Positions 12,625 to 28,765 of a stretch of 44,174 nucleotides of DNA are shown piece after piece. The stretch is from the NCBI GenBank assembly GCA_021161905.1, contig JAGGZT010000015.1, positions 1 through 44,174 on the forward strand. The letters run 5' to 3'. The translations under genes were made by a program, and so were the position numbers. This DNA is from Acidobacteriota bacterium (GTDB lineage Bacteria > Acidobacteriota > B3-B38 > Guanabaribacteriales > JAGGZT01). The first letter of the stretch is position 1, and every line of letters begins with the position of its first letter. The notes below the pieces were generated by a model. The model was given only the letters and a program-made list of their open reading frames with translations. It ran no database searches and was not told where the DNA came from.

Positions 12625-12651
12625 TAGGGAGGGAAAATTTCCCTCCTTTAT
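12625..12651 (+). terminator. Terminator after gdhA
   Basis: Stem AGGGAGGGAAA pairing with TTTCCCTCCT, followed by TTATTTTAT, about 30 bases after the gdhA stop. Confidence 0.85.
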
Positions 12652-12768
12652 TTTATATCTTTTTATACCAATAAGTTGCTAAATTTTTTGTAATAATTTC
12701 AAGATATGGGCTTGTTTTGATAGAAAGCAGGCAGTAGAGGGGTTGTGCTGGGGGAGAGGAGGGATCAG

Positions 12769-12968
12769 ATGGAGGACGAGCTAAGCTTTTCGAGATTGCG
12801 GAGAAGAACTTCGCCAAGGCAAGCCCAAGAAAGGCGACGAAGAGGGCGATCTGTTCCTGCCATTGTGGCAGTAGTGATTGCGATTGCGAAGTAGAGGATG
12901 AACCTGCTCTTACCAGAGCAGGGAAATTCAACTATTGGGCAGGCGATAAGACGGCCGATTGGGGATAA
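12769..12968 (+). pseudogene. Frameshifted Cys-rich RiPP precursor peptide (CxCxC type)
   Basis: A hidden coding remnant. A start ATG at 12769 sits six bases after GGAGGG. Reading from it leaves the coding frame within about five codons; restoring one missing base gives a leader with AKLFEIAEKNFAKASPRK, a basic stretch, then a core with CSCHCGSSDCDC and an acidic tail ending in DWG at the TAA 12966-12968. The frame is open from 12738 to 12968 but has no ATG, GTG or TTG. A helical Lys/Phe-rich leader followed by alternating cysteines is the pattern of ranthipeptide-type precursors modified by CcpM-like radical SAM enzymes. Remnants of such a maturase follow 55 bases downstream. Family assignment is from memory; the frame and cysteines are directly visible. 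Confidence 0.6.
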
Positions 12969-13023
12969 GTATTTAACTGACTAAAAATTAGCCGCCTGGT
13001 GTAACCTCAATCTTTTAAAAGAT

Positions 13024-13847
13024 ATGAGGCTAATAGCTCTGTTCAAAGCCGGTGGCAGATGTTATGTCTATGAAGCAACCGGCAATAAAATATATCAGGT
13101 GGGGGAGGGGATTTATGAACTCATTAAGTGTGGCGGAGATTATCAGGGGAAGGTAAGTGATACCTTCAATAAGTCTCCGGTTAAAGGTTTCCGTTTTTAC
13201 CTTATCGAGCTAAATCGCTTTTTTCCTCCATAGGTATTGGGATTGTTTTTTTCAATGGTTGAGGTATTTGGGATAGGCTTTTGAAGGATAAGCTGGTAAG
13301 GCTCGAAGGGACGAAGTCGCTTGCGGAGAAGTTCAAGAGATTGTGCGTAAAGGGTGTATATAATAGAAACCTCAACCACCCACAAGGAAGATTTGTGCGG
13401 GTTCTTTTCAGTAACACCCTCAGGGTGATCCACAACCGAGAGCTTACCGATGTCTCTGGCAGGTTGCTTTCTTACAGTAGCTTTTGCCTCCCAGGGACAA
13501 CGAAATGCTTTGTGACCTCAGCTGGTGATTTTTTCCCCTGCGAGAAGGTTGCCGGGATCGAGAGGTTGAGGATAGGTGATGTCCGCTCCGGCTTCGATGT
13601 GGAGAGGATTATAGGCCTCCTTGAGGAGGTAACTCAGATAAGAAATGAGTTTTGTTCTGCTTGCTGGGCATTCAGGCTTTGTCGTGCCTGTTTCTATCAT
13701 TTTTATGGTCCTTCTGGGTTTGACAAAGAGAGAATGAGCTATTTCTGTAACGGGATAAGGAGAGAGACGAGAAGCTTGCTCAAGCTCTACTGCTCCATCC
13801 TTGAGGAGAATGAGGAGGCGCTCGATTTCCTCACCCTTTTGTGCTAA
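13024..13847 (+). pseudogene. Radical SAM RiPP maturase remnant (CcpM-like) lacking the radical SAM core
   Basis: Two pieces of one gene in different frames. The piece from 13024 encodes MRLIALFKAGGRCYVYEATG and GEGIYELIK, which resembles the N-terminal domain of CcpM-like peptide maturases. The piece from 13281 (188 residues) is their C-terminal SPASM-type region: VLFSNTLRVIHNRE, CLPGTTKCFVTSAGDFFPCE, FCSACWAFRLCRACF and a final KLYCSILEEN, with the cysteines for auxiliary [4Fe-4S] clusters. The middle of roughly 200 residues, which should carry the CxxxCxxC radical SAM site, is absent, so the enzyme cannot install thioethers. Intact relatives are about 440-460 residues as I recall. The adjacent precursor is also broken. 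Confidence 0.75.
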
Positions 13848-13933
13848 TATAAAAAGAATTCTTTTTCTGGAAGAAGGGATAACTTTGAAGAGAAGAGCTT
13901 TCTGATGTTGTATCTCCAACGAGGTGGGTGACG

Positions 13934-14563
13934 ATGGATTATTCTGAGAGGATGGATGAAGCTGCTTATAGGATGGGTTCTTTTTATCGAAAATGTTTGC
14001 GAGGTCGCTCATTCAAAAGGGTGCTTGAGGTTGGGTGTTCCGGAGGAGGAGTTTTGCTCACGATAGCAGGAGATAAGAAATTTGGGGTAGATATTGATTT
14101 AGATGGGATCAAATTGCTCAAGAGGAGGGGTGGTTATGGAGTGGTAGGGGATGGAGAAAGAGGTTTACCCTTCAGGGATAGCTATTTTGATCTGGTTATC
14201 GCAACTGATTTCTTTGAGCATTTGGTTCACCCAGAAATCGCTATTTTAGAGATAAAAAGGGTTCTTAAGCCTGAGGGGTACCTATTGACCCATGTGCCTA
14301 ACGAGTTCCATTGGCGCAATTTGCTGAAGCTACTCAAAAACGAATCCTTTATTACGACAAACTGGTTTTCCGGATCTTCTGAACATAATTATCCCCATCT
14401 TCGCTTTTTCTCTTTGAAGGGATTCCGTCGGTTTATAGAGGATTATGGCTTTGACATTATTGAAGATTGGACTTACCGGCGCGGAGGGATGTTAGCCCGA
14501 CTGACCAGGCATCAGCTATTTACCCTTGGTCCCACCTATCTCTGTCAACCAAGGGATAAATAG
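13934..14563 (+). CDS. Class I SAM-dependent methyltransferase
   Basis: A 209-residue methyltransferase. The ATG at 13934 follows GAGGTGG; a GTG six bases earlier is also in frame. Motif I is VLEVGCSGGGVLL (residues about 33-45), strand 2 ends FGVDIDLD, the motif IV equivalent is FDLVIATDFFEHL, and VLKPEGYLLTHVPNEFHW is the post-II region, typical of the Methyltransf_11 group acting on small molecules or sugars. It begins 86 bases after the RiPP maturase remnant and 25 bases before a glycosyltransferase, so it could modify a glycan or lipid with the latter. Substrate unknown. Confidence 0.8.
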   Translation: MDYSERMDEAAYRMGSFYRKCLRGRSFKRVLEVGCSGGGVLLTIAGDKKFGVDIDLDGIKLLKRRGGYGVVGDGERGLPFRDSYFDLVIATDFFEHLVHPEIAILEIKRVLKPEGYLLTHVPNEFHWRNLLKLLKNESFITTNWFSGSSEHNYPHLRFFSLKGFRRFIEDYGFDIIEDWTYRRGGMLARLTRHQLFTLGPTYLCQPRDK

Positions 14564-25979: not shown

Positions 25980-26669
25980 TCACCGGAGGATGCAGCCGAC
26001 ACCGTGTCTGCGGAGCTCCTCCCTCAGTAGTTCCATCTCAGCCATAGGGAAGGGAGATAGCTTTAAGGTCCCGTTTGCCAGGGTCTTTGATGGTACGAAC
26101 CGTTGCAAGATGTAGTTTTTAACGCCCTTGATGGTCTTCCCTATATCCAAGATATCCTGTTTTGACAACAGTGGTTTGACTAAGGTGGTTCTGAATTCGT
26201 AGCTTACCCCTGAAGAGGCAATTATATCTATGCTCTTTCTTATTATCTCTCCATCTATCTCTCTTTCTACCACTTCCCGATACCGGCTGAGGGGAGCTTT
26301 GATATCCATTGCTATGTAGTCAACAAGTCCTTCGCCTATTATCTGCTCTAAAACCTCTGGGTTGCTTCCGTTGGTATCAAGCTTTACCAGATATCCCATA
26401 CTCTTTATCCTGCGAATAAACTCCGTGAGGTCCTCTTGTAAGGTAGGCTCTCCCCCAGTTATTGAGATAGCATCGATCTTCCCCTTTCGCTTTTCTAAAA
26501 AGGAAAATACGGCTTCTTCTGCGATCGGCTGTTCGAAGAATCTTGGGTCAACGAGCTCGGGGTTATGGCAGTAAGGACATCTGAAGTTACAGCCCTGAGT
26601 GAATACAATAGCGGATATCTTGGTTGGGTACTCTATTAACGAGAATCTTTGAAAACCGCCGATATGCAC
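25980..26669 (-). CDS. nrdG: Anaerobic ribonucleotide reductase activating protein
   Basis: A 229-residue radical SAM enzyme that installs the glycyl radical on NrdD. FTQGCNFRCPYCHNPEL contains the CxxxCxxC [4Fe-4S] site (around residues 27-34), and SITGGEPTLQ is the SAM-binding GGE motif. It starts 2 bases after the nrdD stop, so the two are co-transcribed and probably translationally coupled. Slightly longer than E. coli NrdG and similar to the form found in archaea and anaerobic bacteria. Confidence 0.93.
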   Translation of the reverse strand: MHIGGFQRFSLIEYPTKISAIVFTQGCNFRCPYCHNPELVDPRFFEQPIAEEAVFSFLEKRKGKIDAISITGGEPTLQEDLTEFIRRIKSMGYLVKLDTNGSNPEVLEQIIGEGLVDYIAMDIKAPLSRYREVVEREIDGEIIRKSIDIIASSGVSYEFRTTLVKPLLSKQDILDIGKTIKGVKNYILQRFVPSKTLANGTLKLSPFPMAEMELLREELRRHGVGCILR

Positions 26670-26671
26670 GG

Positions 26672-28765
26672 CTACCCCTTTATGTTAAAAGCTTTTCTCA
26701 GTTTGAATTCTTCCTTCTTACCTTCATTCCATTGGTTTATTGGACGGAGATAGCCCACGACGCGGGAGTAAACCTCGCATCGTGCTTCACACTTGGGACA
26801 TCTTTCTTGTTCCCCCGGGAGATAGCCGTGGGCAGGGCAAATGCTGAAAGTCGGGGTGATGGTGAAGTAAGGTAGATGATAATTCTCACATATCTTTCGC
26901 ACCAGGATCTTTACACTTTCGGGGTCCTTGATTTGCTCTCCAATGTAGATGTGTAGGACGGTACCGCCGGTATATTTTCTTTGGATCTCATCCTGCAGGT
27001 CAAGCACCTCGAAGATGTCGTCGGTGTAGTTTACCGGGAGCTGGGTGGAGTTGGTGTAGAAAGGCTCCGCTCCCTTCCTCCACTCCTCCTCGTTGGCGCA
27101 TATTATCCGGGGGTATTTCTCCTTATCTATTTTCGCCAGCCTGTATGATGTTCCCTCAGCTGGGGTTGCCTCGATGTTGTAATTGTTACCTGTCTCCTCC
27201 TGGAAGGAGAGGAGCTTTTCCCGCATAAAATCGAGGACCTTTATGGCGAATCTTCTTCCTTCCTCTTTTCCAATATTCACCCCCAGTAGGTTGAGACAGG
27301 CTTCGTTCATCCCGATTAGCCCAATGGTGGAGAAGTGGTTCTTCCAGTATTCCCCGAACCTCTTTTTCACATTGCGGAGATAGAATCTCGCATAAGGATA
27401 AAGCTCCTTCTCCGTGAGTTTCTCTAAAACCTTTCTTTTTATCTCCAGGCTCCCCTTGGCAAGTATCATCAATCTTTCTAAGCGTTTCATAAACTCGCTT
27501 TCGTCCTTCGAGAGGTACCCCAACCGTGCCATATTTATGGTGACCACACCTATCGAGCCGGTTAATGGATTGGCTCCAAATAACCCACCGCCTCTCTTCT
27601 CCAGTTTTCTAAGGTCTAATCTGAGACGACAACACATTGAGCGTGCATCTTCAGGAGACATATCGGAATTTATGAAATTGGAGAAATAAGGTATTCCATA
27701 TTTAGCAGTGACCTGCCATAGGGTCTTCAAATTAGGATCATCCCAGTCAAAGTCGTGGGTGATGTTATAAGTTGGGATGGGGAAGGTGAAGACCCTGCCC
27801 TTGGCGTCCCCCTCTGAGAGCACTTCGAGGAAGGCACGGTTCAAGATGTTCATTTCCTCTTGGAAGTCCCCATAGGTTGCCCTCTTTAATTCCCCGCCTA
27901 TCACCACAGGTGAGTCGGCGTACATCTTGGGGACCTTTAGGTCCATAGTAATGTTTGTAAACGGTGTTTGGAACCCCACTCGTGTGGGTACATTTATGTT
28001 GAAGATAAACTCCTGCAAAGCCTGTTTCACCTCGGGATAGGACAGGTTATCGTATCGAATAAAGGGAGCGAGGAAGGTATCGAAATGGGAGAAAGCCTGT
28101 GCGCCAGCAGCTTCGCCTTGCAAGGTATAAAAGAAATTTACGATTTGCCCAAGAGCACTTCGTAGATGTTTAGCTGGTTTGCTTTCCACTTTACCCGCTG
28201 CGCCTTTAAAGCCCTGGAGTAGCAGGTCATTGAGATCCCAGCCGACGCAGTAGGTGGAAAGCATATTTAAATCATGGATGTGAAAGTCACCTTCGAGGTG
28301 AGCTTCCCTTATTTCCGGAGGGTATATCTTGTTCAACCAGTAAATCTTGCTTATCTCCGAGGAGATGTAATTGTTCAACCCCTGAAGGGAGTAAGCCATA
28401 TTGCTATTTTCGTTTACCTGCCAGTCCAGCTTCTCTAAGTATAGATCGATCAAGTCCACTCCTGCCTTGGAGACAATTTCCCTTATCTTCGCGTGTTGAT
28501 CGCGGTAGATTATGTAAGCCTTTGCTGTTTTCTTGTAGGGGGATGAGAGGAGGATTTCCTCAACGATATCCTGGATCTCCTCTACCGTGGGGATCCTGTG
28601 AGTGATTATCTGCTGGGCTAAGTTTAGGACCCTAAGGGTGAGCTTTTTAGCGATCTCTTCACCGAACTCCCCGGTCGCCTCGCCCGCTTTTTTTATTGCG
28701 GTAGTGATCTTTTGAGCATCGAATTCAACTACTCGTCCATCTCTCTTCTTTATTTTTGTAAACAT
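26672..28765 (-). CDS. nrdD: Anaerobic (class III) ribonucleoside-triphosphate reductase
   Basis: A 697-residue glycyl-radical enzyme making dNTPs without oxygen. The ATG at 28765 has AGGAGAAAG upstream; the frame extends 19 codons further. Residues 1-90 are the ATP-cone allosteric domain (KIKKRDGRVVEFDAQKI). The barrel includes FPIPTYNITHDFDWDDPN. Near the C-terminus CPAHG...CPKCEARC is the zinc site, and RVVGYLRP carries the glycyl-radical glycine. Formate or a thioredoxin-like protein is the usual reductant. It is driven by a clear promoter and followed by nrdG. No NrdR box was recognised. Confidence 0.96.
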   Translation of the reverse strand: MFTKIKKRDGRVVEFDAQKITTAIKKAGEATGEFGEEIAKKLTLRVLNLAQQIITHRIPTVEEIQDIVEEILLSSPYKKTAKAYIIYRDQHAKIREIVSKAGVDLIDLYLEKLDWQVNENSNMAYSLQGLNNYISSEISKIYWLNKIYPPEIREAHLEGDFHIHDLNMLSTYCVGWDLNDLLLQGFKGAAGKVESKPAKHLRSALGQIVNFFYTLQGEAAGAQAFSHFDTFLAPFIRYDNLSYPEVKQALQEFIFNINVPTRVGFQTPFTNITMDLKVPKMYADSPVVIGGELKRATYGDFQEEMNILNRAFLEVLSEGDAKGRVFTFPIPTYNITHDFDWDDPNLKTLWQVTAKYGIPYFSNFINSDMSPEDARSMCCRLRLDLRKLEKRGGGLFGANPLTGSIGVVTINMARLGYLSKDESEFMKRLERLMILAKGSLEIKRKVLEKLTEKELYPYARFYLRNVKKRFGEYWKNHFSTIGLIGMNEACLNLLGVNIGKEEGRRFAIKVLDFMREKLLSFQEETGNNYNIEATPAEGTSYRLAKIDKEKYPRIICANEEEWRKGAEPFYTNSTQLPVNYTDDIFEVLDLQDEIQRKYTGGTVLHIYIGEQIKDPESVKILVRKICENYHLPYFTITPTFSICPAHGYLPGEQERCPKCEARCEVYSRVVGYLRPINQWNEGKKEEFKLRKAFNIKG

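Follow-up and report, generated by a model that had tools for sequence, protein, structure and literature searches.

Does the low-G+C stretch between gdhA and a glycosyltransferase gene in the genome of an Acidobacteriota bacterium hold a RiPP locus, and could such a locus still make its product? The stretch belongs to a window of 44,174 nucleotides (contig JAGGZT010000015.1, assembly GCA_021161905.1), by which we mean the whole of the DNA analysed. A sequence-only reading of this window had described an eroded radical SAM locus comprising a Cys-rich precursor and a maturase without its catalytic core. With a probability of approximately 0.85, we consider it to be a dead two-gene RiPP locus, in which a gene for a Cys-rich precursor was paired with one for a CcpM-like radical SAM/SPASM maturase.

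Remains of the precursor and the maturase

The precursor-like frame comprises a Lys/Phe-rich leader-like part, the core CSCHCGSSDCDC, and a tail containing Trp, Tyr and Phe. In translation, the open frame (frame 0) begins at 12738, closes with the stop codon at 12966-12968 after AKLFEIAEKNFAKASPRKATKRAICSCHCGSSDCDCEVEDEPALTRAGKFNYWAGDKTADWG, and contains no ATG, GTG or TTG. Three-frame translation confirmed that this frame has no start of its own and that the well-placed ribosome-binding site and ATG ahead of it are out of phase (Table 1). A RiPP precursor would be a short gene with its own start, located beside a maturase and carrying a CxCxC core; here, the core and the position are present and the in-frame start is absent. 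The pattern CxCxC-x2-8-CxC occurs once in the six frames of the window; when the window was simulated 60 times with a Markov-1 model, the pattern never appeared. Furthermore, codon use in the Cys frame between 12780 and 12965 (0.135) falls among the values of true gene frames and exceeds those of off-frame readings, and codon use indicates that each of the frames described here was formerly coding. The peptide had no match among NCBIfam or Pfam models in profile searches, and a search across 396 genomes of the phylum gave, apart from its own genome, nothing better than noise (best value 0.003).

Table 1. Features of the locus and its flanks, in window coordinates.
Feature	Position	Strand	Basis
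Terminator-like hairpin downstream of gdhA, bounding the locus upstream	12626..12648	+	Pattern scan; 10-pair stem, T-rich tail; consensus match only
Precursor-like Cys-rich frame, stop to stop	12738..12968	+	Three-frame translation, pattern rarity, codon use
AGGAGGG, RBS-like, 5 nt ahead of ATG 12769	12757..12763	+	Sequence read directly
ORF from ATG 12769, 41 aa, out of frame with the Cys core	12769..12894	+	Translation
Maturase N-terminal piece, profile positions 17-52; ORF runs on to 13233	13024..13131	+	Family profile, shuffles, TIGR04068
Residue between the maturase pieces; radical SAM core absent	13132..13280	+	No profile match in tested fragments
Maturase C-terminal SPASM piece, 188 codons open, TTG as only start	13281..13847	+	TIGR04068, family profile, Cys alignments, AlphaFold
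Class I SAM-dependent methyltransferase, intact, same low-G+C stretch	13928..14563	+	Pfam Methyltransf_11, E 1.1e-16; G+C 43-46%

The stop codon of the precursor frame is followed after 55 bases by the ATG at 13024, at which the first of two maturase pieces begins. Both pieces were compared with a family profile, which was built from 20 related maturases and run against all six frames of the window. The N-terminal piece gave a short match (E 0.0065 among 1326 six-frame window segments) within the N-terminal region typical of CcpM-like maturases; none of 500 shuffles of the piece scored as well, and its match to the CcpM model TIGR04068 is weak (positions 2-36, E 0.08, 11.8 bits). The C-terminal piece matches the family profile over positions 352-503 (E 2.6e-40) and TIGR04068 over positions 349-458 of 462 (E 2.8e-24, 85.8 bits). 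Its SPASM cysteines (C68, C86, C124, C127, C133, C136 and C155) are all invariant in the alignments and reproduce the Cx17C ... CxxCx5CxxC ... C pattern of CcpM-like maturases, and its AlphaFold model has a pLDDT of 83. The two pieces are colinear on one profile, with approximately 300 positions missing between them, and these include the CxxxCxxC radical SAM core, which neither translation nor profile search found in any frame of the locus. The claim that two pieces of a single maturase survive without CxxxCxxC therefore stands. Likewise, each element of the eroded locus lies where the sequence-only reading had placed it: the Cys-rich frame with its missing start, the 55-base gap, both maturase pieces, and the ribosome-binding site whose ATG is in a different frame.

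For the bases between the two pieces, a search of the rest of the genome for a source gave nothing above chance level. A MAFFT column match and one tblastn extension through a stop had suggested that 13132-13280 might contain additional, frame-shifted parts of the enzyme core; the profile test did not support this candidate reading. Apart from the two pieces, the family profile matches the window at E below 0.01 in one place only, the core region of an unrelated radical SAM gene on the minus strand (25980-26684, CNFRCPYC).

Before its decay, the locus would have had a maturase gene starting 55 bases beyond a Cys-rich precursor gene. If the relatives are a guide to the intact state, the maturase would have bound the leader of the peptide with its N-terminal part and cleaved SAM with the CxxxCxxC cluster, and the SPASM clusters would have helped to link the cysteines of the core (CxCxC) to one another through thioether bonds. 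Because the SAM-cleaving core has gone with the middle of the maturase, the remaining pieces lie in different frames, and the start of the peptide is out of phase, the locus cannot give rise to an active enzyme, and the Cys peptide is probably no longer made from it.

Among known systems, CcpM is the one whose model both pieces matched best when searched against radical SAM/SPASM families, and a small Cys-rich frame adjoins them; unlike CcpM, the relic has no radical SAM core, and both pieces score below the curated cut-off of 500 bits. The C-terminal piece also matches the sactipeptide maturase RumMC (NF035951, E 5.1e-21) and the ranthipeptide maturase PapB (NF047865, E 1.4e-11), although with scores below that of CcpM and, again, with the core missing from the window. 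Among solved structures, the family profile comes closest to CteB, the SCIFF maturase (PDB 5WGG/5WHY; E 8.6e-70), which is also the top fold match of the C-terminal piece, at a non-significant E of 0.05; in contrast to the relic, CteB is an intact enzyme with SCIFF peptides as its substrates. The SCIFF/CteB and PapB systems are the characterised relatives on which the analogy of a thioether bridge is based (review PMC8326336). It is from the family names and from CteB as the nearest structure that a thioether, ranthipeptide-like chemistry would be assigned to the locus, and we infer this peptide chemistry, the order of the decay events and the former function of the locus.

Intact and decayed relatives

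In a sample covering the phylum, the C-terminal piece was matched in 35 of 396 genomes, and the five best after that of the window (G059, G153, G119, G386 and G193) all belong to one class, Aminicenantia. With the maturase of Candidatus Aminicenantes JdFR-78 as the query, matches were obtained in 21 of 142 Aminicenantia genomes, in several of which the copies are numerous; the matches in this count that are weaker or partial may be other radical SAM enzymes. Up to 10 maturase-matching stretches occur in a single genome; this number is reached among G470-G476, of family f26 in Aminicenantia, where some of the matches lie beside CxCxC precursors, as in an expanded RiPP family. A scan of named genomes, for which the query was a three-row alignment of C-terminal parts, showed that two of the best-matching loci are those of JdFR-78 (L057/L063) and JdFR-80 (L058/L064), and added the locus of a Halothermothrix MAG (L065).

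The intact layout in these relatives is a Cys-rich peptide followed by a maturase of approximately 500 aa, often near a beta-propeller gene, and in several of them a propeller-type gene follows. Intact loci with a CxCxC precursor adjoining the maturase were found in JdFR-80, JdFR-78, the Halothermothrix MAG, G386, G415, G475, G442 and G119. The CxCxC frame stands ahead of the maturase in JdFR-80 (WCICGCTCGTVKDSEDPSRGATEWDYAEQP), JdFR-78 (two frames), G386, G415 and the Halothermothrix MAG, and downstream of it in G119 and G442. The precursors of the relatives start in phase, and none of those searched matched the NCBIfam models tested. The window locus resembles the Aminicenantes loci in gene order, precursor style and maturase family; it differs in that those loci are intact, their maturases are only 20-34% identical to the window piece, and no propeller gene follows the window locus. 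The intact homologues in the phylum thus share the gene order of the relic, which bears out its description as a CcpM-like maturase beside a Cys-rich precursor-like frame. Because the intact maturases score 355-377 bits against TIGR04068, below its cut-off of 500, we regard this group as cousins of CcpM and not as members at the curated level.

Decay is not confined to the window. Two genomes of the same genus carry the same propeller gene: in G153, that of JdFR-80, the locus is intact (L058, G153:C59, 8767-11758), whereas in G193 the maturase is reduced to its last 449 bases, 81.5% identical and broken by a stop (L061, G193:C88, 6101-6583), beside a propeller gene that is still 89% identical. 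In G416, the open frame of the maturase covers profile positions 84-258 and resumes only with a weak match at 461-496, which leaves it without the SPASM part. In this copy (L098, G416:C241:14500-19500, 2179-2892) the radical SAM core is kept and SPASM is skipped, the reciprocal of the loss in the window. A fragment at a contig end in G119 (L096) was left out of the decayed count. Since the copies in G193 and G416 are decayed as well, loss of these loci is recurrent, which fits a dispensable, fast-turning-over peptide and not a core function. Because related Acidobacteriota (Aminicenantes) carry intact and similarly decayed versions, the window locus is a pseudogenised sacti- or ranthipeptide-like pair that has undergone ordinary gene loss, in a family that is little described. 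By itself the relic is of little weight; its value is as a pointer to an Aminicenantes family that pairs CxCxC peptides with CcpM-like maturases, on which no paper was found in the literature.

Loss, origin and alternative readings

The proposal that the system has been lost is upheld by the absence of an intact copy elsewhere in the genome. In the 2.09-Mb draft, no second match to the C-terminal piece and no other full CcpM-like gene were found, the remaining TIGR04068 matches covering only the core regions of other radical SAM genes. The further proposal, that such a system is not expected in this lineage, holds in part: no other copy was found in three genomes of its own order, but the family is present in 21 of the 142 Aminicenantia genomes of the same phylum. 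The search of these three genomes for a maturase copy had no positive control, and neither gdhA nor the glycosyltransferase gene flanking the locus was matched in those genomes. G+C at approximately 12.5-14.5 kb is 43-49%, compared with 50-56% in gdhA and most of the glycosyltransferase gene, consistent with the acquisition of a cassette of which the methyltransferase is part. However, a tree of C-terminal parts leaves the window piece unplaced, so that transfer from Aminicenantes is not established. In addition, no relatives of the C-terminal piece were found in IMG/VR.

An artefact of assembly or sequencing, in which the living genome is intact and the contig has collapsed or has lost the middle of the maturase and one base, is the alternative that survives best, and we consider it unlikely. 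The genome is a single draft assembly in 72 contigs, and codon use in the peptide frame is still coding-like. However, such an artefact would have to account for three separate lesions inside 0.6 kb, and the approximately 150 bases between the pieces are not a simple join of two halves. Moreover, the genome yielded no other full copy that could cause a collapse, and relatives carry decayed copies too.

Under the preferred reading of a dead locus, the loss may be recent, as had been suggested. The terminal branch of the C-terminal piece (0.93) equals the median of its tree. Because the seven SPASM cysteines and a frame of 188 codons survive, either the decay is young or the C-terminal piece is kept for something. 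The latter would be the case if selection retained it as a stand-alone protein, such as an iron-sulphur partner or an inhibitor-like remnant, working with another radical SAM enzyme, for example, a prophage-borne PapB-like one. The long open frame with all SPASM ligands, the confident predicted fold and the intact PapB-like enzyme that this genome also encodes are compatible with this role, but the TTG start has no convincing ribosome site, the equivalent piece in G193 carries a stop, and no conserved stand-alone form was seen; we therefore judge it to be very improbable. Least credible of all is a living locus whose precursor is read by programmed frameshifting and modified in trans by the prophage PapB-like maturase: a good ribosome site and ATG do lie directly ahead of the Cys frame, and the genome has an intact radical SAM gene elsewhere, but inspection by eye found no canonical slippery heptamer at the overlap, the prophage enzyme adjoins its own Cys-rich partner, and the precursors of relatives start in phase.

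A prophage-borne PapB-like pair in the same genome

That prophage enzyme lies on another contig of the genome, C13 (32105-35565; locus L062, 4106-7566), in a prophage-like region with a Cys-rich tail gene and a radical SAM gene. The phage-tail-like gene encodes 762 aa, the last 166 residues of which hold 38 cysteines (repeats of the type CETACETGGCETAC), and it overlaps the start of the intact radical SAM/SPASM gene (387 aa). PapB is the best match of the latter (NF047865, E 3e-62), at 211 bits against a cut-off of 340; it is also well matched by the phage radical SAM family phrog_1802. Because of this intact PapB-like gene, the organism is not without a thioether-type system. It is possible that the protein is a phage tail protein crosslinked by a radical SAM enzyme, and the pair is perhaps a better lead than the window relic. 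Searches of IMG/VR and of 59 other genomes of the phylum gave no close relative. The gut phage Phass-1 (OQ749652.1; L119, 4112-5660) carries a radical SAM relative, distant at 30% identity, followed by a frame ending in CNTCNVGCDIQCRTCITCNSCKDRSCSDSD, an arrangement that parallels the pair on contig C13.
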